Positions 1 to 19,132 of a DNA stretch of 55,195 nucleotides are shown piece after piece. The notes under the pieces are model-generated. The model saw only the letters and a list, made by a program, of their open reading frames with translations, made no database searches and was not told the DNA's origin. The stretch is from Candidatus Roizmanbacteria bacterium CG_4_9_14_0_2_um_filter_38_17 (lineage in GTDB: Bacteria > Patescibacteriota > Microgenomatia > GCA-00278855). The stretch spans positions 1 through 55,195 of the forward strand of contig PFSB01000016.1 of assembly GCA_002788855.1 (NCBI GenBank), in the 5' to 3' direction. The stretch's first letter is position 1; every line of letters starts with the position of its first letter. Made by a program: the position numbers and the translations under genes.

Positions 1-399
1 TATCTCAATAAACTTTATGGTGGTTTATGTTCACTTTTGTTTACAGTTAAAGATTTTCACTAAATTGCCTGCTTTCACTGTTTAGTGAAAATGCTTGTTT
101 GAGTGAAACTGGCTAAAGATTTGACAACTAGCGCCAAACGAAGTTAACATCGGCAAACCTTGTAGAACTAGTGGTGGTCAGTTGATCAACTTCTCCAATG
201 AGTTGAATGGACCAGTGAGTAGGGCAACGGTACAATAATCGCTTGCAAATTCTCCAGATTTTGTCTTCAGGCTACAACTAGCCTAACCAGGCAGCAAACG
301 CCTCGTAAACTTGGCCACGCGGGGTCAGGGCTCGTTTGTTTGAGGTGATATCCTTTTTCCGTTGTGCCATTAGAGGCTTTGTAGGATAATACCTCTTAT
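1..399. other. Leading stretch without a supported gene
   Basis: I find no convincing gene in these 399 bases. A perfect 11-bp inverted repeat (TTTTCACTAAA at 54-64 and TTTAGTGAAAA at 81-91, 16-base spacer) could form a hairpin or bind a protein. A short minus-strand reading frame beginning MAQRKKDIT (start near 370, stop near 278) has coding-like residues but no recognised family. The -10-like GATAAT at 385-390 probably serves the HNH gene that starts at 400. Confidence 0.5.
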
Positions 400-1018: not shown

Positions 1019-2056
1019 CTAATAGTTTGCTTCTAAGAATTCTTTTACAGTCAGTGCTATGTTGTAGGCCAGGTTGCATGGAACAGCATTTCCTATTTGT
1101 CTCCCCACAGAAGTTTGAGACCCTACAAATTCAAAGTTGTCAGGAAATGTTTGCAGTCGAGCTCCTTCTCGGAGAGTAATGGGTCGATCTTCTGTTGGGT
1201 GTAAGTACCTTCCTTTTTCGGGTTTATAGAACTCAGTTCTAACAGTTAACGATGGTTTGTCCCACCACAACCTGCCAAACACATCTGTACTGCCAGTTGG
1301 TTTGTTACGCCAACAATCTGGTAAAAGCTCATCTGGTAAATCAAATCGATTGCCCCCAGAGGGTACAGCTTTATATCTTTTTTGAGACAACTCTGTTGGC
1401 TTTCGTTCGGTGTGCCAATTTTTACCATCAGGCTTGCCAGGTAAACCTGCAAAAGCTTCTTTAACTGTGACCCAAGGTTTTTGGGTATCGGTAAAAAGAG
1501 TTTGACCTTTTGAATCAGTGTGTGTTGGGGATGGGTGTTTTAAGCCTGTTTTTTTAGCTGCTATTACAATAGCTCTTTGTCTTCTCTGTGGAACACCGTA
1601 GTTTGCCGCGTTCAAAATCTTTGTTTCTATGTGATAACCAAGTTCAGATGTGGCCTTTCTTACCTCTTCAAATTCTTGAGAAGATAATAATTCAGGTACG
1701 TTTTCCATAATCCACACTTTAGGAGAGAGGAGGCGTACTATTCGTAAGTACTCTTTCCACAATCTGTTACGAGGATCATTTTTTAGTTGTTTGCCTAATG
1801 CGCTGAATCCCTGACAAGGTGGGCCACCAATAATAATGTCAACATCTTTGCCCACAATGCTTAATATTTTTTCGTTATCTACCTTGGTAATATCCTTGCA
1901 GATAATTTCGGTGTTTGGAAAATTCTTTTTATAAGTCAAACAACTATCTTTATCGAAGTCAATTGCTAGGGTAGAGTCAAAACCAGCCATATGGAAGCCC
2001 TGCGTCATTCCGCCAGCTCCTGCAAATAAATCGATAACTTTATATTTTTTTGCCAT
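1019..2056 (-). CDS. dcm: DNA C5-cytosine methyltransferase (Dcm family)
   Basis: Transfers methyl from S-adenosylmethionine to C5 of cytosine in DNA. All main motifs are visible in 345 residues: motif I DLFAGAGG (9-16), motif IV GGPPCQGFS with catalytic Cys81, motif VI MENVP near 118, motif VIII QRRQR near 157, and motif X GRQIGNAVP near the C terminus, with a target-recognition stretch between VIII and IX. Length is typical for a solitary or type II enzyme. The start lies one base after the stop of the LexA-like gene, so both are probably on one transcript. The converging HNH gene is the probable cognate nuclease; the recognition sequence cannot be read from the protein. Confidence 0.95.
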   Translation of the reverse strand: MAKKYKVIDLFAGAGGMTQGFHMAGFDSTLAIDFDKDSCLTYKKNFPNTEIICKDITKVDNEKILSIVGKDVDIIIGGPPCQGFSALGKQLKNDPRNRLWKEYLRIVRLLSPKVWIMENVPELLSSQEFEEVRKATSELGYHIETKILNAANYGVPQRRQRAIVIAAKKTGLKHPSPTHTDSKGQTLFTDTQKPWVTVKEAFAGLPGKPDGKNWHTERKPTELSQKRYKAVPSGGNRFDLPDELLPDCWRNKPTGSTDVFGRLWWDKPSLTVRTEFYKPEKGRYLHPTEDRPITLREGARLQTFPDNFEFVGSQTSVGRQIGNAVPCNLAYNIALTVKEFLEANY

Positions 2057-2057
2057 A

Positions 2058-2657
2058 CTATTCTGTTCTAATTAATCCTACAAATACTCCGCGAATTTCA
2101 AGTTGCTCAGGAATAATTGTGTCATATCTGTGGTTTCTTGGCTCTAGAACTTTCTTTCCATTTTTCTCACCTAAAATTTTTAGAGTAGCTCCGTTTTCAG
2201 TAATGCCTACGACAACATCTCCAACATTGGCAGTCATTTGGTGTTTGATGAGGACAATATCATTGTCTAGAACTCCCATATCAATCATACTGTCACCCTT
2301 CACTTTGAGAGCGTAGTATGAATCGTTTTTGTTTAACTTGATATTTGTGGGAACCTGAATTGGTGTGGAATCTTCTATTGGTTCTATTGGTGTTCCAGCT
2401 GCTATGTATCCCAGCATAGGCACTGTTTGTTTCTGTGCGACAGAAATAATACCACGATTTTTGTAAGGATCACGTTTGAGGTGGCCTTTTTTCATGAGTT
2501 CCTGGACAAAGTACTGAGCGGTACTGAGATTCTCAGTTTTGAGAAACTGGGCGAGTTCTTTCAGAGAGGGAGAGTAACCCTTTGTGGAGATGAAGGAGTT
2601 TATGAAATCCAGGGCTTCTTTTTGTCTGTTTGTAAGAGGCTTGACGGATAAGGGCAT
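2058..2657 (-). CDS. lexA: LexA-like self-cleaving transcriptional repressor
   Basis: SOS-type repressor of 199 residues. The N-terminal winged helix (about 8-72, with TNRQKEALDFI) fits LexA. The C-terminal peptidase S24 fold carries the Ala87-Gly88 cleavage bond (IAAGTP), the nucleophile Ser123 in GDSM and the general-base Lys160 in ATLKIL. Spacing of these sites closely matches E. coli LexA (84-85, 119, 156). The gene precedes the cytosine methyltransferase by one base, an unusual placement suggesting it controls the restriction-modification genes as well as, or instead of, a general SOS regulon. Its promoter has a TTGACA box (2690-2695, minus strand), 17-base spacer and TAAAGT (2667-2672), and is overlaid with repeats. 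Confidence 0.88.
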   Translation of the reverse strand: MPLSVKPLTNRQKEALDFINSFISTKGYSPSLKELAQFLKTENLSTAQYFVQELMKKGHLKRDPYKNRGIISVAQKQTVPMLGYIAAGTPIEPIEDSTPIQVPTNIKLNKNDSYYALKVKGDSMIDMGVLDNDIVLIKHQMTANVGDVVVGITENGATLKILGEKNGKKVLEPRNHRYDTIIPEQLEIRGVFVGLIRTE

Positions 2658-2717
2658 ATTATGATAACTTTATGATAAATCTACAGTGATGTCAAGCGGG
2701 ACATCCAAAGAATAAGT
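2658..2717. promoter_or_regulatory. Divergent control region between lexA-like gene and TPR/PIN gene
   Basis: This 60-base gap separates two divergent operons. On the minus strand it holds TTGACA (2690-2695) and TAAAGT (2667-2672) with a 17-base spacer. Two direct copies of TTATGATAA (2659-2667 and 2670-2678), 11 bases apart, overlap the -10, about one helical turn. An inverted repeat GATGTC/GACATC (2688-2693 and 2700-2705) overlaps the -35. Either could be the operator of the LexA-like protein; which one is inference. No strong promoter is visible for the plus-strand gene. Confidence 0.6.
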
Positions 2718-5700
2718 ATGACTATGACAATTCTAGACAAAAACTACTTACGTTTTCAATTCAGAGACAGAATCTACAGAAGTAACGGCAGTGAGTTTCA
2801 GTCATTTTTTGAAGAGGTAATGCGAAAAGCATTTTCTGATTTCAAGAAAATAAAACCATCTGGTAAGGAAGGTGACGGGGGTAATGATGGTTATGTCCCA
2901 TCAAAGGGGATTTATTATCAAGTTTACGCTCCGATTAAACCAGAAGAAAGTGATTCCGATGCCGCCTCAAAACTCAAGAAAGACTTCGAAAAGAAGTTGA
3001 AAGAAAAATGGGAGTCTATATTAGATATCAAAAAATACTATTTTGCATTTAATGATAAGTATTTGGGCACAACTATAAAAATAAAAAAGGCTCTGAGTGA
3101 GCTAAAAGAGAAGAATAAAAATATTAAATTCAATTCGTTTACAGCGCAGGATTTGGAGGATGTCTTTTTTACTTTGAAGGAAGAACAAATTTTATCTTTG
3201 GGGTTTGACGTAGACTCCACTAAAGCTCTAAAAGTTGTCCGTGATTATTTGGAGAAACTTGAAATAGATTTGGATCGAGATAATACAACGTTCGTGATTA
3301 GAACTTTAGAGAATATTAAAGAAATTGCCGAGGCATTGTCAAACAATGATTTGAGTTTAGAGCTTGATATATTAGAGGCTCGTACTTTGCATAAAACTGA
3401 ACAAATAGCTCTGGCGAAAGAATACTACAAATCTCTTTGCAAGAGATATCCTAACGATTCCAGGCCATTCTTATATTTGGCCGAAATATATTTAAACGAA
3501 CGAGATCTCAGTAAAAATAAATCTTTATTAGATCAAGCTGAAAAGATTAGTGTAAGCTATTGGCTTTTGGAACTTGAAAAATTGATCCGCATGTACGCGA
3601 CTAATGAGAAAGTTGATCTTTCCTCAGTGAAGGAAAGCACCTTCCCAAGCGATCCTCGCGTCAAAGCAAACTTCTATAGGATTTATTCCGGATTTTATGC
3701 TGAATCAGGTGATTATACTAATGCTGATAGCTTTATAGAAAAAACCATTAAACTTAACCCTGACAAATTTAGTAGCTACGATGCCAAGCTTTCGATTTTG
3801 GAAAGAAGATATTTCGCCGAGGAAGACAAGGATAAGAGGCTTGAGTTGGTTGAAAGCTTTTTGTCTGAGGTTGAGTCAATAGAAACAAAAATACAATCTT
3901 GGGGGGAAATTGGGCCAAGAAATAAAGCTATTATTTGCTTCCGTAAATTCAATGCGTTTCGAATGCGAGAAGACTTGCCAGCCGTTGAACAATGTGCCAA
4001 GGATTGCTTCGAACTTATCTTAAAATGCCATTTCGATCACACGATTGACAACCTGCTTGTTGGTATCCTTACTTTTATTGAGTTACCAGAAAGCGACCTG
4101 AAAAAACTGTTTGACTATTTGGATAAGGCCCAAAAGCAGATATCCGATGATCTGGCTAAACGGCTGATTTTCCAATTTTCTCTTAAGGGAACATTATTTA
4201 CTGACGGGAAGGAATATTTTGCAAAGCATAAGAATAAAAAGTTTGTAGATTTTATATCTGATTTAGCAGACAAAAAATATGACGCAATATTAAGTTTTCT
4301 GGCAGATGATTCCTTATTTGCTGTGGCAATCGCCAATATTGCTAAGCATGATTCTGAGTTGAGGTTAAAAATAATTGAGAGTTTACCTAACGATGGTAGT
4401 GTTCAAAAAGATAAGCTCTTGCTACTTCTGAGCTACGATGAGGGCGACATGGATAAAGCCTTTGACCTTCTAAAAGGCTTTGATTTATCAGAAATGGGTT
4501 ACTTGGAATCTAGGCAAGTCCTGAAGATAGCTCAAAGCAAGAAGGCATGGGATTTCACAATCGTTTTACTAGAAAACCTATTGCAGCATGAAAAAGATCC
4601 AAAGTTAGTTTTGCAACTCAGACTTGATTTGTTTACTGCAAACTTCAATTTGGACAAGTTCAGAGAAGCTGCTCAGACTGGTGAGGAGATTTTGGCAGAC
4701 AAGCTGCAATTAAGTTTCCTAAGTGACAGGAATAAGGAAAGTCTTTTGGGCCAAACAATCTTGTCTAAAATCAACCGTGGAGAATTTGAGCCAGCGAAGC
4801 AACTTTTGGAAAGTTATCCTACTTTGATTACTTCACACGATTTTGTCTTGGGTGTTAAGGTTGATGTCTACCTGAAGAACAATGATGCACAAAGGGCTCT
4901 AGAGGCAATTGTTGAAGGAGTCAGGCTTATAAAAACACCTAATCCAGAACAGTATGCCCGTCTTTTTCTTTACTTTACTGAAATCGGCAATAGGATGGAT
5001 TTGCCTCTTACTTCTCTTGAGAGTGTTATAAAAAATAGTTTTGTAAAACTTAAAGATCAAGACCAGTGGTATTTTATTGGAGAAGATGAAGAATTGGATG
5101 CCACGAAAATTGTGCCTAAAGACGATCTTTACCAATTGTTTTTAGGTAAGAAAATTGGAGAATCAATCGAATTTGAAGAAAAATACAGGGCCACAAAGAG
5201 AAAACACGAGATAGAGCTAATTTTCCCTGTTGAGAGATATATTCTTTGGCAATGTAGGCATTTTGCGGAAAAGTTGACTGTCGAGAAGCGCTGGAAAGGA
5301 ATGGAAATTATAGATGTTCCGAGTACGGCTGATGGCGGAATAGATCCCAAATATCTTATTGCAAGGTTAGAGGATGATAAAAAATCTAGAGGAGACTTTT
5401 TTGATATGTACTCACAAAAACGTCTTCCTTTAGCTTTTCTTGCTGTTAACCAAGGTGGTCTTCCTGGTGCAATCGGAGCAATTCAAATGGAGCAAAAAGG
5501 TTATATTCATTTTAGTTCTGGTGATTTGGACGAAATTAATCAGCAAAAAGAAATAGCAAAGCGAATCATTTGTGGAGAAAAGTTTTATATAGACGGGACT
5601 TCAGCTTTAGTACTAAGCGAAACAGGGTTATTGGCTGATATTTATCAGCATTTATCTGGTTTAACAGTTCCTCAATCAGTAATTACTCTTTTACTTGAGA

Positions 5701-6542
5701 TTAATGATAAGTTTCGAGTTGTCCCTGGACAGGCAGGCAATATGGCATATTCACAAGGTAGACTAGTGTTTTCATCAGTCGATCCTGAGAAGAGAAGGAA
5801 AATTCGAAGTAATTTTTTGGAAGCCATAAAGCTTTTGGAATCCAAGCCAGAAAATGTAGAGGCAATTTCAAAAGCAAATAAAACTGGAGAGTTTTCCGAG
5901 AGGGGAATTGAGCCAGCTCTTAGTGATGCTTGCATTTTAGCACAAAGAGATCAGTTTCTTGTGTTAACAGAAGATTTTACATATCTCAAAGTGAACGAAT
6001 TAGAGACAAAGAAAACTGCTCCAGTTTATTGCTCAGCCTTCTCTTTAGTAAGAGTGCTTTATGAGATGGGTGAAATCGGATTTGACAAATACCTAGCATT
6101 CTTTAGTTATTTGGCTAGCTACCGATTTAGATTTCTACCAATTACAGTCGAAGACATCGAAAAGTCAGTATTTGGGGATGGAGATATCAAAGCATTTGCT
6201 CCAGAAAATATCCGATTATTTAATTTCCCATTAACGCTGTCTGAGGATTACGGAGTTCCATTTGATAGGGCATTTCCTGTTGTAGGTAGGTTTTTGGTAA
6301 AAATCTTGATGGACGACGCTTTGGTCCCAGAGATGGTGGATAAAATTTTTGTTGAAATATTGGAGACTTTCCCAACCAAGAATAAGAAAGAGTTGGGTCA
6401 AATGTTTTTAACTGTGAGTGTGAGAGTCATTAACAATATTCAAAAACGAATGGTGGTTAGTACGAAGGTGCAAGAAAAAGTTGATTCTTTGACCAGACTG
6501 ATCGAAATTTATGATGGAGAAGGAATAATTATTCCCCAATGA
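2718..6542 (+). CDS. Large REase-like/TPR/GreAB-C-like/PIN-like protein, predicted conflict effector
   Basis: A 1274-residue protein. Residues 25-75 look like a Mrr-type PD-(D/E)XK fold: GSEFQSFFEEV (24-34), GDGGNDGY (52-59, Asp57) and YYQVYAP (66-72), where Tyr70 takes the place of the usual Lys. Residues about 200-790 are helical repeats with TPR character (for example around 225-270 and 315-355). Residues about 796-850 (DLYQLFLGKKIGE onward) resemble the C-terminal domain of GreA/GreB. Residues about 955-1150 look like a PIN nuclease: YIDGTS with Asp959 and VLTEDF near 1083. I recall TPR-GreAB-C-PIN proteins from surveys of bacterial conflict systems, but cannot check that here. Two more genes follow at 3- and 13-base gaps. 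The role as a nuclease effector is inferred; ATG at 2724 is an alternative start. Confidence 0.72.
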   Translation: MTMTILDKNYLRFQFRDRIYRSNGSEFQSFFEEVMRKAFSDFKKIKPSGKEGDGGNDGYVPSKGIYYQVYAPIKPEESDSDAASKLKKDFEKKLKEKWESILDIKKYYFAFNDKYLGTTIKIKKALSELKEKNKNIKFNSFTAQDLEDVFFTLKEEQILSLGFDVDSTKALKVVRDYLEKLEIDLDRDNTTFVIRTLENIKEIAEALSNNDLSLELDILEARTLHKTEQIALAKEYYKSLCKRYPNDSRPFLYLAEIYLNERDLSKNKSLLDQAEKISVSYWLLELEKLIRMYATNEKVDLSSVKESTFPSDPRVKANFYRIYSGFYAESGDYTNADSFIEKTIKLNPDKFSSYDAKLSILERRYFAEEDKDKRLELVESFLSEVESIETKIQSWGEIGPRNKAIICFRKFNAFRMREDLPAVEQCAKDCFELILKCHFDHTIDNLLVGILTFIELPESDLKKLFDYLDKAQKQISDDLAKRLIFQFSLKGTLFTDGKEYFAKHKNKKFVDFISDLADKKYDAILSFLADDSLFAVAIANIAKHDSELRLKIIESLPNDGSVQKDKLLLLLSYDEGDMDKAFDLLKGFDLSEMGYLESRQVLKIAQSKKAWDFTIVLLENLLQHEKDPKLVLQLRLDLFTANFNLDKFREAAQTGEEILADKLQLSFLSDRNKESLLGQTILSKINRGEFEPAKQLLESYPTLITSHDFVLGVKVDVYLKNNDAQRALEAIVEGVRLIKTPNPEQYARLFLYFTEIGNRMDLPLTSLESVIKNSFVKLKDQDQWYFIGEDEELDATKIVPKDDLYQLFLGKKIGESIEFEEKYRATKRKHEIELIFPVERYILWQCRHFAEKLTVEKRWKGMEIIDVPSTADGGIDPKYLIARLEDDKKSRGDFFDMYSQKRLPLAFLAVNQGGLPGAIGAIQMEQKGYIHFSSGDLDEINQQKEIAKRIICGEKFYIDGTSALVLSETGLLADIYQHLSGLTVPQSVITLLLEINDKFRVVPGQAGNMAYSQGRLVFSSVDPEKRRKIRSNFLEAIKLLESKPENVEAISKANKTGEFSERGIEPALSDACILAQRDQFLVLTEDFTYLKVNELETKKTAPVYCSAFSLVRVLYEMGEIGFDKYLAFFSYLASYRFRFLPITVEDIEKSVFGDGDIKAFAPENIRLFNFPLTLSEDYGVPFDRAFPVVGRFLVKILMDDALVPEMVDKIFVEILETFPTKNKKELGQMFLTVSVRVINNIQKRMVVSTKVQEKVDSLTRLIEIYDGEGIIIPQ

Positions 6543-6545
6543 GCT

Positions 6546-7259
6546 ATGAAACAAATAACATCGATAATTAAATTCAGATATGGACGAATAAAAGATGTTT
6601 CTAGTCCACATAAAGACAAAAACCGAGTTGAGGTGTGTTTGAAAAAGATGGCGGACAATGCCATTGAGGTTGTTTGTTCATTTGAAGACACTGATATATC
6701 CAAAGATCAAGCAATAGACTATGCAATTAAAGCAACAGATATGATCGCTTTAATTAATTCGTTGAAAACAGAGGTTAACTCTGAATGTAGCTACAACGTT
6801 AAAATGCACTGGCAGGAAAGTGATGGAGCTTCCATTCAAGGGAGAGTTTCTTTGCAGGCTCGTGCAGCTGCTGCATCTGAGGTCAATTGTGAAATCTCAG
6901 GGTGTTTAAATATTGATGTTGAAAATATTCAAGATTCAATGAATCATCAACAATCATTTGAGTGTTTTAATAGGGCTCTGCAACACAAGGAGTCAGGTCA
7001 GCAGGATACAAGTGCTATAGCAATATGGCTTCGATTGTCTTGGGAAGCATTGCAAATGGAACTTGGTTTGTCAGAACAGCAACTAAAGAAGGAAGTTGTA
7101 AGAGACAAAATTCTTTCAGATAAAATTTTGGGTGATTTTAAATACTCTGTCGGTGAGTACTATGTCCATAAAAAAAGAAGATCTGGAGGAAATAAAAAAC
7201 CTATTTCCATAGAATCCTGTACTAATAATATGCGAAAAATCCTCCTACATTATCTATGA
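6546..7259 (+). CDS. Uncharacterised protein, second gene of the TPR/PIN operon
   Basis: I do not recognise this 237-residue protein. It begins three bases after the stop of the large TPR/PIN gene, so it is almost surely cotranscribed. The first half (about 1-125) has alternating strand-like segments and two conserved-looking cysteine sites (SECSYNV, NCEISGC). The second half is helical, with the stretch AIWLRLSWEALQMELG around 160-175 that recalls HEPN-type or Apea-like helices, although no RxxxxH motif is seen. No signal peptide or membrane segment. It may be a partner, sensor or inhibitor of the large protein; this rests only on position. Confidence 0.6.
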   Translation: MKQITSIIKFRYGRIKDVSSPHKDKNRVEVCLKKMADNAIEVVCSFEDTDISKDQAIDYAIKATDMIALINSLKTEVNSECSYNVKMHWQESDGASIQGRVSLQARAAAASEVNCEISGCLNIDVENIQDSMNHQQSFECFNRALQHKESGQQDTSAIAIWLRLSWEALQMELGLSEQQLKKEVVRDKILSDKILGDFKYSVGEYYVHKKRRSGGNKKPISIESCTNNMRKILLHYL

Positions 7260-7272
7260 CTGCAAGCTAGAT

Positions 7273-7749
7273 ATGGAACATAAAGCCAATAATCAATACC
7301 GCACGATGCTTAGAGCATATCAGGAGCTCGAAAGGATTAGTACCAATAACGGAAACAAAATCTCTTTTGCTGATCCAGATTACGAAGTAAGAAACTTCTT
7401 CATCCATTGCTATCATCTCAAGGATAGTTTGAAAAAAGATTCAACTATTACTCTCAAGGAAGATGTCGAGAAATTTATTACTAGAAGCAATTCACTTAGC
7501 CTTGCTGCGGATTATGCCAATTCTTTCAAGCATGGTGGTTTAGATAGAAAAACTAGATCAAACAAAACTCTGGGCAAAACAAACAAACATCTGCGTCTTG
7601 ATCTGACATCAACTGGTTTTGTCGGTTCTGCCCGGATGGAATTGACAATAAGTGGAGAAAAATATGATGCCTTTACTCTTGCTACTGAATGTATCGATGA
7701 ATGGAACAACTATCTTAAAAGAAATGAGATCTTATTTAAAGATGAATAG
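7273..7749 (+). CDS. Uncharacterised HEPN-like helical protein, third gene of the TPR/PIN operon
   Basis: A 158-residue soluble protein starting 13 bases after its neighbour. The run EVRNFFIHCYHLKD (38-51) contains an R-x4-H pattern (Arg40, His45), the signature spacing of HEPN ribonucleases, and is followed by SLAADYANSFKHGG near 90-100. I recall similar proteins with 'NCYHLKDWL...ADLCNGSKH' patterns in many bacteria, usually annotated hypothetical. Together this suggests a helical nuclease or nuclease-like subunit acting with the PIN protein. The motif is seen; the activity is inferred. Confidence 0.6.
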   Translation: MEHKANNQYRTMLRAYQELERISTNNGNKISFADPDYEVRNFFIHCYHLKDSLKKDSTITLKEDVEKFITRSNSLSLAADYANSFKHGGLDRKTRSNKTLGKTNKHLRLDLTSTGFVGSARMELTISGEKYDAFTLATECIDEWNNYLKRNEILFKDE

Positions 7750-7879
7750 TTAAAAATCTATTTATTTCCTTCACCGTCCACTCCGGATACTCCAATTCGC
7801 TCACCCAATCAATTCGTCCGAATTCATACCATCGTTCGAGCCCGATAAGACAAAACTTCGAATTTGTGTAATGCCTCTG
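7736..7879 (-). pseudogene. Coding relic without a start codon
   Basis: The minus strand has 47 codons open between two stops, ending at 7736 inside the 3' end of the HEPN-like gene. The translation (…GLERWYEFGRIDWVSELEY…) has strongly protein-like composition, but there is no start codon. It looks like the C-terminal remnant of a lost gene; the family was not identified. Confidence 0.35.
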
Positions 7880-8240: not shown

Positions 8241-8490
8241 AATTGCTATTTCATCATTAGCGCTTGATCTAAGACGCGTTGCTCAGGCGTATTACCGATC
8301 TTCTGATAGGGTTGCGGAGAGATTCATGAGCGAAGCAATTAGAAGAAAAGCAGAGGTAGATACTAGCTTAACGCCTAACTACATAAGAGAGCTTTTGTAT
8401 AAAGTACAACAACGTTCAACAGATCCAAAAAAAGATGCCGAAAAGTATCTAATGTACAGTGTTCTTTTTCAGAACTATGCAGTTACATAG
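8227..8490 (+). CDS. Small helical protein paired with DUF5674
   Basis: 87 residues, all helical in appearance (ISSLALDLRRVAQAYYRSSD at 8-27, then ERFMSEAIRRKAEVD). It has no membrane segment or known motif. The start overlaps the end of the DUF5674 gene, so translation is probably coupled. I recall similar short partners beside DUF5674 in CPR genomes. A role as antitoxin, adaptor or DNA-binding partner is guesswork. Confidence 0.6.
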   Translation: MEKNKIAISSLALDLRRVAQAYYRSSDRVAERFMSEAIRRKAEVDTSLTPNYIRELLYKVQQRSTDPKKDAEKYLMYSVLFQNYAVT

Positions 8491-8543
8491 GTTCTAACCA
8501 CGTCTCCTTCTTTCATTCCTTCAACAAGTTCAGGACTATTCAG
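8491..8543 (-). repeat. Dispersed repeat, SPELVEG type, copy 1
   Basis: About 50 bases nearly identical to 12699-12749, each abutting the stop of the gene or gene fragment before it. The shared core includes CTCCTTCTTTCATTCC and CAACAAGTTCAGGACTA. On the minus strand the core reads SPELVEGM in translation, a peptide often mis-called as protein in genomes carrying the common CTTCGACAAGCTCAGG-type repeat; this looks like an AT-rich form. Confidence 0.7.
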
Positions 8544-8657
8544 AATCTAGGATTCCTCAATATTTTCGGAACTTGCAGCATACGGGGGAGCTAGGCCGAG
8601 CGATCGGCGTAGGTTATCAACAAGGGGTGCGTCTTGAGAATCGTTCCCAACGACCAC

Positions 8658-8697: not shown

Positions 8698-9507
8698 GTG
8701 CCTATAAAAGGGTACTTAAGCTATATGAAACAAACTATATTAAATACTAATCAAAGCACACTTCTCGAGAATCTGATCGTCAAACACGGCCAGATTGTGA
8801 CCTCTGAGCAGATTTATGACCAGGCTGAGGGTTCGTGGGATCAACAGAGGACAAAGAAGGTCATTGCTAAATTAACCCAAAATGGCTGGTTGATTAGAGT
8901 GAAAAGGGGTTTATATGCCATCTCTGACTTGAGTAATCGCGGGTTTTTGTCCCTGTCGCCTTCTGTGGTGGCTAGTCTCCTGGTTAAAGATTCCTATGTT
9001 TCTTTTGAGTCGGCTTTAGCATATTATAGTATGTTTGATCAGCTTACTAACAAAACTATCTCTATTTCGCGAGCGCAATACAAGTCAGTCCAGTTGCAAT
9101 CAGTCGAATATAGCTTTGTGAAAGTGCTAGACAAGTGGTTCTTTGGCTGGCAAGAGGTGACTATTGATAATAAGACGGTACATATGGCGACTGCTGAAAA
9201 AGCCTTAATTGACATGATTCAGTTCCATAAAAGCAAATATACCGTTGATTTAGTGGTGGAAAAGCTCTCAATGTATAAAAGCTCACTAGATTTGCAAAAA
9301 ATGATTGAATACTTGGGTAAGATGTCTTTAACTACCATTAAGACATTTGGTTTCCTGTTTGACCTTTTAAGGATTGATTCTAGTGACCTTTATAATCAAG
9401 TTAAGTTAAAAAGTACTAACTTGATGTTGTCTCACGATGCTAAATTTAATGCCAAATGGCGACTCTATTACGACGAGTATTTTGATAAATATCAGTCAGT
9501 TAAATAA
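8698..9507 (+). CDS. abiEi: AbiEi-type antitoxin (winged-helix regulator)
   Basis: Antitoxin of a type IV toxin-antitoxin system, 269 residues. The N-terminal winged helix covers about 20-80 (SEQIYDQAEGSWDQQRTKKV, LTQNGWLIRVKRGLYAI), and the antitoxin domain follows, with SPSVVASLLVKDSYVSFESAL and a TAEKALIDMI motif typical of the AbiEi/COG5340 family. The nucleotidyltransferase partner begins five bases downstream. In known systems AbiEi represses the operon and counters AbiEii toxicity without stable complex formation. The start is ambiguous: GTG at 8698 fits the promoter, ATG at 8725 (MKQTILN) is the other candidate. Confidence 0.85.
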   Translation: MPIKGYLSYMKQTILNTNQSTLLENLIVKHGQIVTSEQIYDQAEGSWDQQRTKKVIAKLTQNGWLIRVKRGLYAISDLSNRGFLSLSPSVVASLLVKDSYVSFESALAYYSMFDQLTNKTISISRAQYKSVQLQSVEYSFVKVLDKWFFGWQEVTIDNKTVHMATAEKALIDMIQFHKSKYTVDLVVEKLSMYKSSLDLQKMIEYLGKMSLTTIKTFGFLFDLLRIDSSDLYNQVKLKSTNLMLSHDAKFNAKWRLYYDEYFDKYQSVK

Positions 9508-9512
9508 TCCCT

Positions 9513-10271
9513 ATGCTTACTCGGCAACAACTTGAAATAATCAATCGGAAAAGCTTACGTTATCCGTTGCACGTCGCCGAAAAGGATTATTTCCTAGCTC
9601 TGGTAATGCAAATTATTGCAGCTTCCTCGACTGGCAAAACTCTTATTTTTAAGGGTGGTACAGCTTTACACCATTGTTATTTGGACCAGTATCGTTTTTC
9701 CGAAGACTTGGATTTTTCTTCAAATCGGATGCCATTACCCCTTGAAGAGATGCACAATATATTTGATAACATCGATTATTTGAGTATCAAGAAAGAGTAT
9801 CTCTCTAATGCCACTATTAAACTAGAAAAACTCCAATACTCCGGACCACTGCTTCAACCCAACTCGCTCAAGGTAGAAATTGATTTCCTGCAAAATGTGC
9901 TACTACCTTCTCAAACCTTGGCTTACAACAATGTCTGGGGTGTGGATTTTATGGTTGCTATTATGGATATTAAAGAAATATGTGCTGAGAAAATCCGAGC
10001 TATGAGTGATAGAGCTCGTTACCGGGACTTTTATGATATCTACTTACTTTTGGAAAAGTACAAGTTGGATCTGGATGAAATTGTCTCGTATGTCAGGCAG
10101 AAGGAAATTCGCCGACCTATCACCAAGGCTAGCATTCAAACCAACTGGAAGGTGATTGCGACCGAAAAAGAGCAGGAAATGGGCCAGATCTATTACTCCA
10201 AGCAGATAGAGGATAGTCAGATTGAGACACTAATCCAAAGTCTACCTTTTGACAGTATTGTGGCTGTATAA
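9513..10271 (+). CDS. abiEii: AbiEii-type nucleotidyltransferase toxin
   Basis: Toxin partner of AbiEi, 252 residues, DUF1814/AbiEii family of the DNA polymerase beta superfamily. The key nucleotidyltransferase motif is intact: FKGGTALHHCYLDQYRFSEDLDF at about 44-66, with the GG and the SEDLDF Asp pair. A later KICAEKIRAMSDRARYRDFYDIYLL block (about 155-180, here EICAEKIRAM) is also typical. Known relatives block growth by nucleotide transfer and give abortive phage resistance. The gene is complete and follows the antitoxin by five bases. Confidence 0.9.
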   Translation: MLTRQQLEIINRKSLRYPLHVAEKDYFLALVMQIIAASSTGKTLIFKGGTALHHCYLDQYRFSEDLDFSSNRMPLPLEEMHNIFDNIDYLSIKKEYLSNATIKLEKLQYSGPLLQPNSLKVEIDFLQNVLLPSQTLAYNNVWGVDFMVAIMDIKEICAEKIRAMSDRARYRDFYDIYLLLEKYKLDLDEIVSYVRQKEIRRPITKASIQTNWKVIATEKEQEMGQIYYSKQIEDSQIETLIQSLPFDSIVAV

Positions 10272-12390: not shown

Positions 12391-12698
12391 ATGAAAGTAA
12401 TCTTATCTATGGCAATGTCTGTAAACGGTATCATCGCCGATGAAGATGGTAGTGAGGACTTTCTCTCTCATGACAACTGGATAGCATTTACTAAGTTAGC
12501 CAATAAGATCGGTTCATATATCTGGGGAAGAAAAACCTATGAAGCTGTCATAAAGTGGGAAGGTGATTATCTTGATGACCTTTAGGCAAAGGTGTTCCGC
12601 TGTTATCTCCAGTTAATGTCAACCTCCGATTGAAACTAATTAAGGTAGAAAATCTCGCACCTGACCACCTTGCTGTCCATTATGCGGTGGTTAAGTAA
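12391..12698 (+). pseudogene. Broken RibD-C/dihydrofolate-reductase-like gene
   Basis: The first 64 codons (MKVILSMAMSVNGIIADEDG… GRKTYEAV) are a clear N terminus of the RibD C-terminal/dihydrofolate reductase family, which is normally about 160-180 residues. A stop comes at 12583-12585. The matching C terminus (GKGVPLLSPVNVNLRLKLIK … HYAVVK) follows at once in another frame and ends at 12696-12698. The middle of the protein is missing. This is an internal deletion plus frameshift, so the enzyme is dead. A TATACT-like box lies upstream, and a dispersed repeat begins right after the final stop. Confidence 0.8.
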
Positions 12699-12749
12699 GT
12701 TCTAACCATGTCTCCTTCTTTCATTCCTTCAACAAGTTCAGGACTATGC
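12699..12749 (-). repeat. Dispersed repeat, SPELVEG type, copy 2
   Basis: Second copy of the unit at 8491-8543, differing at a few positions, again directly after a stop codon (that of the RibD-like relic). Confidence 0.7.
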
Positions 12750-12769
12750 AGGATCTGGGACATCCTGGG

Positions 12770-14777: not shown

Positions 14778-15254
14778 ATGTCTATAATTGGTAGTAATGT
14801 GATTTTTTCAAAAGCGAAAGTTAATAAACAGAAAAAGCAAAGTGATAATAGAGAGACACTTCAGGAATTTTCTGGAGTAAACAACCCAACGTTGCTTAAA
14901 ATTCAGACAGTATTTCCATTCATTATTTTTCCTAATATTTTGAGAATTGATCTTCAAAAAGTAAGCATAACCCATGTATTGTTTTTTTGGACACATAAAG
15001 ATCAGGTTATAGACATAAATGACATTCTTGGAGTTTCTGTTCAGTCAGGACCACTATTTGCAACACTTCTTATAACTACAAAGTTTTTTTCCCAAAATCC
15101 TTTTAAAATAGCTTATTTACTTAGGGGACAAGCAATGTTAGCAAGAAGGATTATTCAAGGATTAATGATCGTTTCGAAAAAAAAGATAAAGATTGAAGAA
15201 ACAAATAAAAATAAAATTATTGCTATGCTCGAGAAAGTTGGGAAAATTCGATGA
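14778..15254 (+). CDS. Hypothetical protein with PH-like domain character
   Basis: 158 residues, unrecognised. The N-terminal 35 residues are basic and polar. The centre has strand-rich stretches (FPFIIFPNILRIDLQKVSI, VIDINDILGVSVQSGPLF) that recall bacterial PH-like (YdbT/DUF304) domains, then an amphipathic helix ALLARRIIQGLMIV-like. No signal peptide. Bases 15072-15127 of this gene recur exactly at 19077-19132, so part of it was copied. Confidence 0.5.
   Translation: MSIIGSNVIFSKAKVNKQKKQSDNRETLQEFSGVNNPTLLKIQTVFPFIIFPNILRIDLQKVSITHVLFFWTHKDQVIDINDILGVSVQSGPLFATLLITTKFFSQNPFKIAYLLRGQAMLARRIIQGLMIVSKKKIKIEETNKNKIIAMLEKVGKIR
15072..15127 (+). repeat. 56-bp exact direct repeat, copy 1 (inside the PH-like gene)
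   Basis: Identical to 19077-19132, including a run of seven T. The copy here is in a reading frame; the other is in non-coding sequence next to a small hairpin. Confidence 0.9.
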
Positions 15255-19076: not shown

Positions 19077-19132
19077 ATAACTACAAAGTTTTTTTCCCAA
19101 AATCCTTTTAAAATAGCTTATTTACTTAGGGG
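19077..19132 (+). repeat. 56-bp exact direct repeat, copy 2
   Basis: Exact copy of 15072-15127, 4 kb away, outside any gene. The ack-phosphoketolase operon lies between the two copies, so recombination between them would delete it. Confidence 0.9.

Follow-up and report, generated by a model that had tools for sequence, protein, structure and literature searches.

The LexA-methyltransferase cassette

The sequence studied, hereafter the window, is a 55,195-nt stretch of DNA (contig PFSB01000016.1) from Candidatus Roizmanbacteria bacterium CG_4_9_14_0_2_um_filter_38_17 (GCA_002788855.1), the genome of which comprises 1.09 Mb and is 98.9% complete. It carries a gene for a LexA-type repressor next to a DNA methyltransferase gene, in a cassette whose edges recur at two other loci, C19 of the same genome and L006. 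The features are:

1..335 (no strand): left cassette edge, common to C19 (91-95% identity) and L006
400..1011 (+): HNH endonuclease with an N-terminal wHTH (HTH_39); PF01844 8e-11, PADLOC REase_II 5e-9
1019..2056 (-): C5-cytosine DNA methyltransferase (dcm-type), 345 aa; PF00145 1e-74, TIGR00675 dcm
2058..2657 (-): LexA-type self-cleaving repressor, 199 aa, wHTH 6-69 and S24 domain 80-192 (Pfam/NCBIfam, residues, AF2 model)
2659..2678 (-): predicted LexA operator core, TTATCATAAAGTTATCATAA, two half-sites 11 bp apart, conserved in relatives
2667..2695 (-): sigma70-type lexA-dcm promoter, TTGACA-17-TAAAGT, 10/12 match
2684..2690 (-): third, weaker half-site ACTGTAG (ATCATAA variant), another 11-bp step upstream (promoter alignment)
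2718..6542 (+): divergent gene, 1274 aa, with N-terminal LmuA-like nuclease region, TPR repeats and PIN domain
6546..7259 (+): divergent operon gene 2, 237 aa, matches no family
7273..7749 (+): divergent operon gene 3, 158 aa, matches no family
7751..7846 (no strand): right cassette edge, common to C19 (85%) and L006

The repressor is a member of the LexA family by its domains (Pfam LexA_DNA_bind, PF01726, 4e-14; Peptidase_S24, PF00717, 7e-20) and by its score against the NCBIfam lexA equivalog TIGR00498 (140 bits, cutoff 111). An earlier, sequence-only reading of this DNA had proposed an intact self-cleaving repressor, and the family's defining residues are all present exactly where that reading placed them: the scissile bond is Ala87-Gly88 and the catalytic dyad is Ser123/Lys160. 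The AF2 model (pLDDT 86.5) had LexA and LexA-RecA structures as its best PDB matches and is sound for each domain, with a loose superposition of the whole chain. The LexA proteins of E. coli and T. maritima (3k2z; LexA-RecA complexes 8gms and 8trg), at 30-31% identity, share with it the wHTH and S24 domains, the Ala-Gly bond, the Ser-Lys dyad and, as predicted for the window protein, an autoregulated promoter.

The dcm-type gene starts 1 bp past the lexA stop, and the HNH frame converges on it and ends 7 bp from the dcm end; both arrangements had been described correctly. The C5-methyltransferase motifs PPCQ, ENV, QRRQR and GNAVP, read from the translation, are intact. A C5 methylase with an adjacent, convergent HNH gene that matches REase_II fits the definition of a type II restriction-modification (R-M) locus, with cognate specificity presumed, and the HNH protein is probably the restriction enzyme belonging to the methylase. 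Since this enzyme is convergent and outside the LexA operon, what LexA would directly govern is methylation, together with the divergent gene, and not restriction. The suggestion that DNA damage could change both methylation and restriction would then apply to the methylase, which lies in the LexA operon, and not to the HNH enzyme.

The gap of 60 bp between lexA and the divergent 1274-aa gene holds the direct repeats and the lexA promoter, and the control region, as had been claimed, is bidirectional and faces the TPR/PIN operon; its direct repeats are conserved. The 1274-aa protein matches PADLOC LmuA (7e-10) over residues 13-142 and PF20698 PIN-TPR-GreABC at 4.5e-6, slightly below the cutoff, and may be a defence-type effector, possibly one with two nucleases. 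Beyond the cassette, an AbiEi-like antitoxin gene, followed by a 252-aa gene that resembles an AbiEii-type partner, occupies 8698-10271; the two may form a type IV toxin-antitoxin pair beside the R-M cassette. The window also contains short repeats of 56 bp at 100% identity (15072-15127, 19077-19132) and of 71 bp at 90% (8482-8552, 12690-12760).

The flanks of C19 (L004; 10202-11653 and 82-177) match window positions 1-335 and 7751-7846. Since the window, C19 and L006 have both flanks in common, this appears to be a site of exchange for LexA, R-M and accessory genes; the shared flanks represent either a defence hotspot or strain alleles that were binned together. C19 was for this reason rejected as a clear second paralogue of the genome: it is possibly one strain's allele of a single hotspot, and our argument does not rest on there being two copies. 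C19 and L083 have type IIG enzymes that are 98% identical, LexAs that are 74% identical and unrelated divergent genes. The contig of L006 (JAHKLX010000048.1) is filed under a Micrarchaeota MAG, yet carries a bacterial (Patescibacteria-type) LexA/R-M locus with matching flanks, and is probably misbinned.

Operator, promoter and the LexA homologues of the genome

The sequence-only reading had named two kinds of site to search for, TTATGATAA pairs and the palindrome GATGTC-N6-GACATC. In the window, TTATGATAA-CT-TTATGATAA occupies 2659-2678 with the palindrome upstream, and the repeats overlap the spacer and -10 element of the lexA-dcm promoter, the transcript of which would be nearly leaderless. 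A search of the window for a good divergent sigma70 promoter found none. Promoters of close relatives follow the common pattern CTTGAC-N3-ACnGTA-N3/4-TAYCATAAA-N-TTATMATA, in which the TTGAC block is invariant in 8 relatives and ACnGTA, at the third half-site, in 8/8.

When 39 promoters of the LexA subfamily (including one later recognised as housekeeping) were scored, direct repeats at a lag of 11 bp, lying over the -35/-10 region, gave z=16.2; this was the only strong signal, all other lags from 6 to 24 remaining at z<=2, and no inverted-repeat geometry rose above z=2.9. A held-out set of 18 fusion promoters gave z=9.9 at lag 11, and housekeeping lexA promoters gave a weaker signal of z=4.2, consistent with common descent; because the sequences are related, these z-scores overstate independence. 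The half-sites differ by clade (ATCATAA, TTTCGnTA, GTnATA) and the 11-bp step is retained.

The exact paired operator was found at just two places in the 1.09-Mb genome, both of them LexA/R-M promoters (window and C19), and sites with three mismatches were near the level of the reversed-pattern control. Among five relatives tested, sites with 0-1 mismatch occurred only at the corresponding locus; G004, which has a fusion with a variant operator, gave no 0-1-mismatch sites, and at L084, which has a variant operator, nothing closely matching the search pattern turned up. As the exact operator is restricted to the two LexA/R-M loci and the 11-bp repeats are conserved, the TTATGATAA pair is the likely operator of the window LexA. 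A global regulon for this protein was rejected, with exact operators at two loci only. The palindrome was rejected as an operator, being perfect in the window, C19 and L006 only, imperfect or absent elsewhere, and thus not conserved beyond the nearest relatives.

The genome contains three LexA homologues, so the search for a second lexA that had been proposed was productive: besides the window protein there are the C19 LexA (84% identity), which precedes a type IIG system, and a C13 copy (30%). The situation that would have spoken against the earlier reading, a sole lexA with many operators elsewhere, was not what the genome held. The C13 LexA (G000:C13:67246-67854(-), that is, L005 7238-7870(-)) adjoins uvrB, the usual housekeeping position in this group, and has GTQR in place of AGSK, all four autocleavage residues being lost; AGSK was present in every other LexA examined except L082 (TGSK). 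The C13 protein should therefore not self-cleave and is apparently non-cleavable, and only the R-M LexAs of the genome keep LexA domains together with intact cleavage sites.

A recA gene is present; its upstream region, on inspection, had no obvious operator, and a Y-family polymerase was sought in the genome and not found. Operators before recA, uvr genes and Y-family polymerase genes, which mark an SOS regulator, were not found for the window LexA. With the housekeeping LexA dead and no Y-family polymerase, the classical SOS response looks lost, and the active site of the R-M LexA is kept. The SOS-like control that had been proposed for the two operons is better taken as a local, private regulon, with induction by damage predicted.

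Linkage of LexA to methylases across genomes

Across 374 genomes of the class, LexA homologues were ranked by similarity to the window protein and their neighbourhoods were then read; the set was accordingly chosen by similarity and not by neighbours, and the fusions L109-L113 and L018, picked for their long frames, lie outside the count. The 33 most window-like LexAs comprised 3 housekeeping and 30 non-housekeeping proteins. A methylase (or Vsr plus methylase) gene came directly after the LexA gene or was fused to it in frame in 28 of the 30 non-housekeeping loci, compared with 0/27 housekeeping LexAs (Fisher p=3e-14), the methylases of L092 and L095 being assigned by likeness to the Pfam-confirmed gene of L094; the exceptions were L086 and L100. 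The partners span five methylase families (C5, N4/N6, D12, N6/Eco57I and M.Eco57I), which argues against hitch-hiking with one R-M lineage. The window LexA is thus encoded within an R-M locus and shows conserved linkage, sometimes as gene fusion, which bears out the proposal that it sits in place of an R-M control protein.

Seventeen long fused frames were found, with a methylase domain wherever scanned except in L109, whose partner is not a methylase. These fusions combine the LexA HTH, S24 and the methylase in one frame and occur also in near-complete genomes. In an independent phylum-wide sample, at least 19 of 380 genomes had LexA and a methylase in one fused frame, and this sample contributed 18 further fusions, with Pfam methylase domains confirmed in 4/4 scanned. 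Wherever the fusion partner was identified it was a methylase, and it was never an identified nuclease. Among plasmid and phage records, a search for LexA-methylase fusions gave no match spanning 80% of a query; a viral origin was rejected, viral contigs giving weak partial matches only.

The convergent gene is a restriction enzyme in many loci (MvaI/BcnI, BsaWI, Bsp6I, EndoVII/His-Me, BglII, PADLOC REase_II), suggesting that LexA is tied to the methylase rather than to the nuclease. Restriction and methylation are codirectional at type IIG loci and at some of type II (L080-L082, L085). The catalytic Ser and Lys are kept in 38/38 proteins, down to about 40% identity, and the Ala-Gly bond in 37/38, L082 having Thr-Gly. 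The divergent genes vary among loci (AAA_15/AAA_21 ATPases, SMC-type, Schlafen AlbA_2, ThsB-like TIR, TPR-PIN with LmuA-like nuclease) and look defence-like by their families. At three loci of differing R-M type (L004 4388-4867(-), L009 7451-7924(-), L081 5519-6028(-)), the divergent gene encodes a small protein weakly similar to lamin-tail domains.

A quick ML tree separated R-M-linked from housekeeping LexAs. One starred clade comprises 22 R-M LexAs, mostly stand-alone and including the window protein; a second group, with support 80, consists of fusions apart from L013, an unlinked LexA; and the housekeeping LexAs form a set starred for 27. L226 (G036:C2), from a more distant LexA lineage, also precedes an M.Eco57I-like gene, which suggests the independent recruitment of a third LexA lineage to a methylase.

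A proposed role in control of methylation

We propose, with a probability of about 0.6, that the window LexA is a dedicated, autoregulated, RecA-cleavable controller of the methylase of a type II R-M system and that its self-cutting triggers a rise in methylase. The protein would bind the 11-bp-phased direct repeats that cover the spacer and -10 element of the lexA promoter and so keep lexA and the co-transcribed methyltransferase low; probably it would also repress the divergent nuclease/TPR/PIN gene 60 bp away. DNA breaks, caused by restriction of under-methylated host DNA or by phage attack, would give rise to RecA filaments, on which the repressor would presumably depend for cutting itself at Ala87-Gly88; the promoter would then open and the methylase would rise until protection was restored. 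In the fused relatives, the equivalent cut would separate the DNA-binding domain from the S24-methylase enzyme. With the restriction enzyme lying, at most loci, outside the operon and convergent to it, the simplest purpose would be homeostatic and directed against self-restriction, namely the curing of under-methylation, with self-cutting supplying the signal. Loss or imbalance of type II R-M is known to induce SOS (PMC3874152), so such a damage signal exists.

A different purpose would be damage-induced defence, with LexA mainly restraining a costly anti-phage cassette (the divergent nuclease and the R-M genes) that is released by phage damage, self-protection being a by-product. The defence-like look of the divergent genes, varied as they are between loci, is in keeping with this, and in L080-L082 and L085, where the restriction enzyme runs in the same direction and is probably part of the operon, both enzymes would be induced and the defensive purpose fits equally well. 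We nevertheless regard it as the less likely reading, since most fusions have a convergent restriction enzyme, sometimes with its own small Xre-like gene, that would escape LexA induction, and since the identified partners in the fusions are methylases. It is less likely still that a captured LexA holds the methylase at a set level with its autocleavage unused, in the manner of a C protein or an autorepressing methylase. Operators and linkage alone would require no cleavage, and the Thr-Gly bond of L082 agrees with this; yet the retention of Ser and Lys in all, and of Ala-Gly in all but one, of the 38 proteins compared, while the housekeeping LexA of the genome has lost all four residues, points to selection on the catalytic site. 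That same loss could suggest that the window LexA, with only R-M LexAs intact, has replaced the dead protein as a working SOS repressor and also controls DNA-repair genes; the confinement of exact operators to two R-M promoters, three-mismatch sites near control level, a recA upstream region with no obvious operator and the lack of a Y-family polymerase make this very improbable.

Control of the methylase by the window LexA remains the reading we favour. Its extension is more tentative, at slightly less than even odds: across Patescibacteria, the methylase arm of R-M systems would have acquired LexA switches again and again, several times by fusion, so that any cutting of host DNA would, through RecA-induced self-cleavage, raise or free the methylase. 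How a host survives its own restriction enzyme, especially on entry into a new cell, is a long-standing question, for which C proteins, autoregulating methylases and, in type I systems, ClpXP-dependent restriction alleviation are the solutions known. A break-sensing repressor coupled to the methylase, or fused with it, would solve the problem by direct feedback, in a circuit through which an R-M system could detect its own autoimmunity, cure it and gain a foothold in a new host. LexA would then be a portable switch of local reach as well as a global SOS regulator, and Patescibacteria defence loci would have a control mechanism.

C proteins are small, autoregulated DNA-binding regulators of type II R-M loci with an Xre-type HTH and no protease domain, and they usually control the restriction enzyme. 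The window LexA resembles them in being encoded in an R-M locus and in its predicted autoregulation, and differs in being of a cleavable type and tied to the methylase; with its wHTH, S24 domain and 11-bp direct repeats instead of a small Xre HTH and C-boxes, it is not a classical C protein. At some fusion loci the convergent enzyme is accompanied by a small, separate Xre-like gene. SOS LexAs differ from the R-M LexAs in that the latter have a local, private regulon, form separate clades and in many cases are fused to a DNA methylase. BrxR/CapW (WYL) and RptR are dedicated regulators adjoining defence or R-M genes, and RptR recognises direct repeats in the promoter of an R-M system (PMC9122601, PMC9122589, PMC12255303). 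They are parallels in function, but belong to other protein families and have no self-cleaving protease domain, and methylase fusion goes unmentioned in the abstracts.

The literature searched contained no description of LexA-controlled or LexA-fused R-M; the 2017 study of the Patescibacteria SOS regulon by Sanchez-Osuna, Barbe and Erill (doi 10.1111/1462-2920.13826, cited in PMC8565304), which reportedly deals with LexA-controlled genes in the same superphylum, may overlap with the subfamily described here. Another LexA-like paralogue with an intact active site was observed near a DinB-type-polymerase-like gene in several of the class's genomes (L216, L219, L222, L225).
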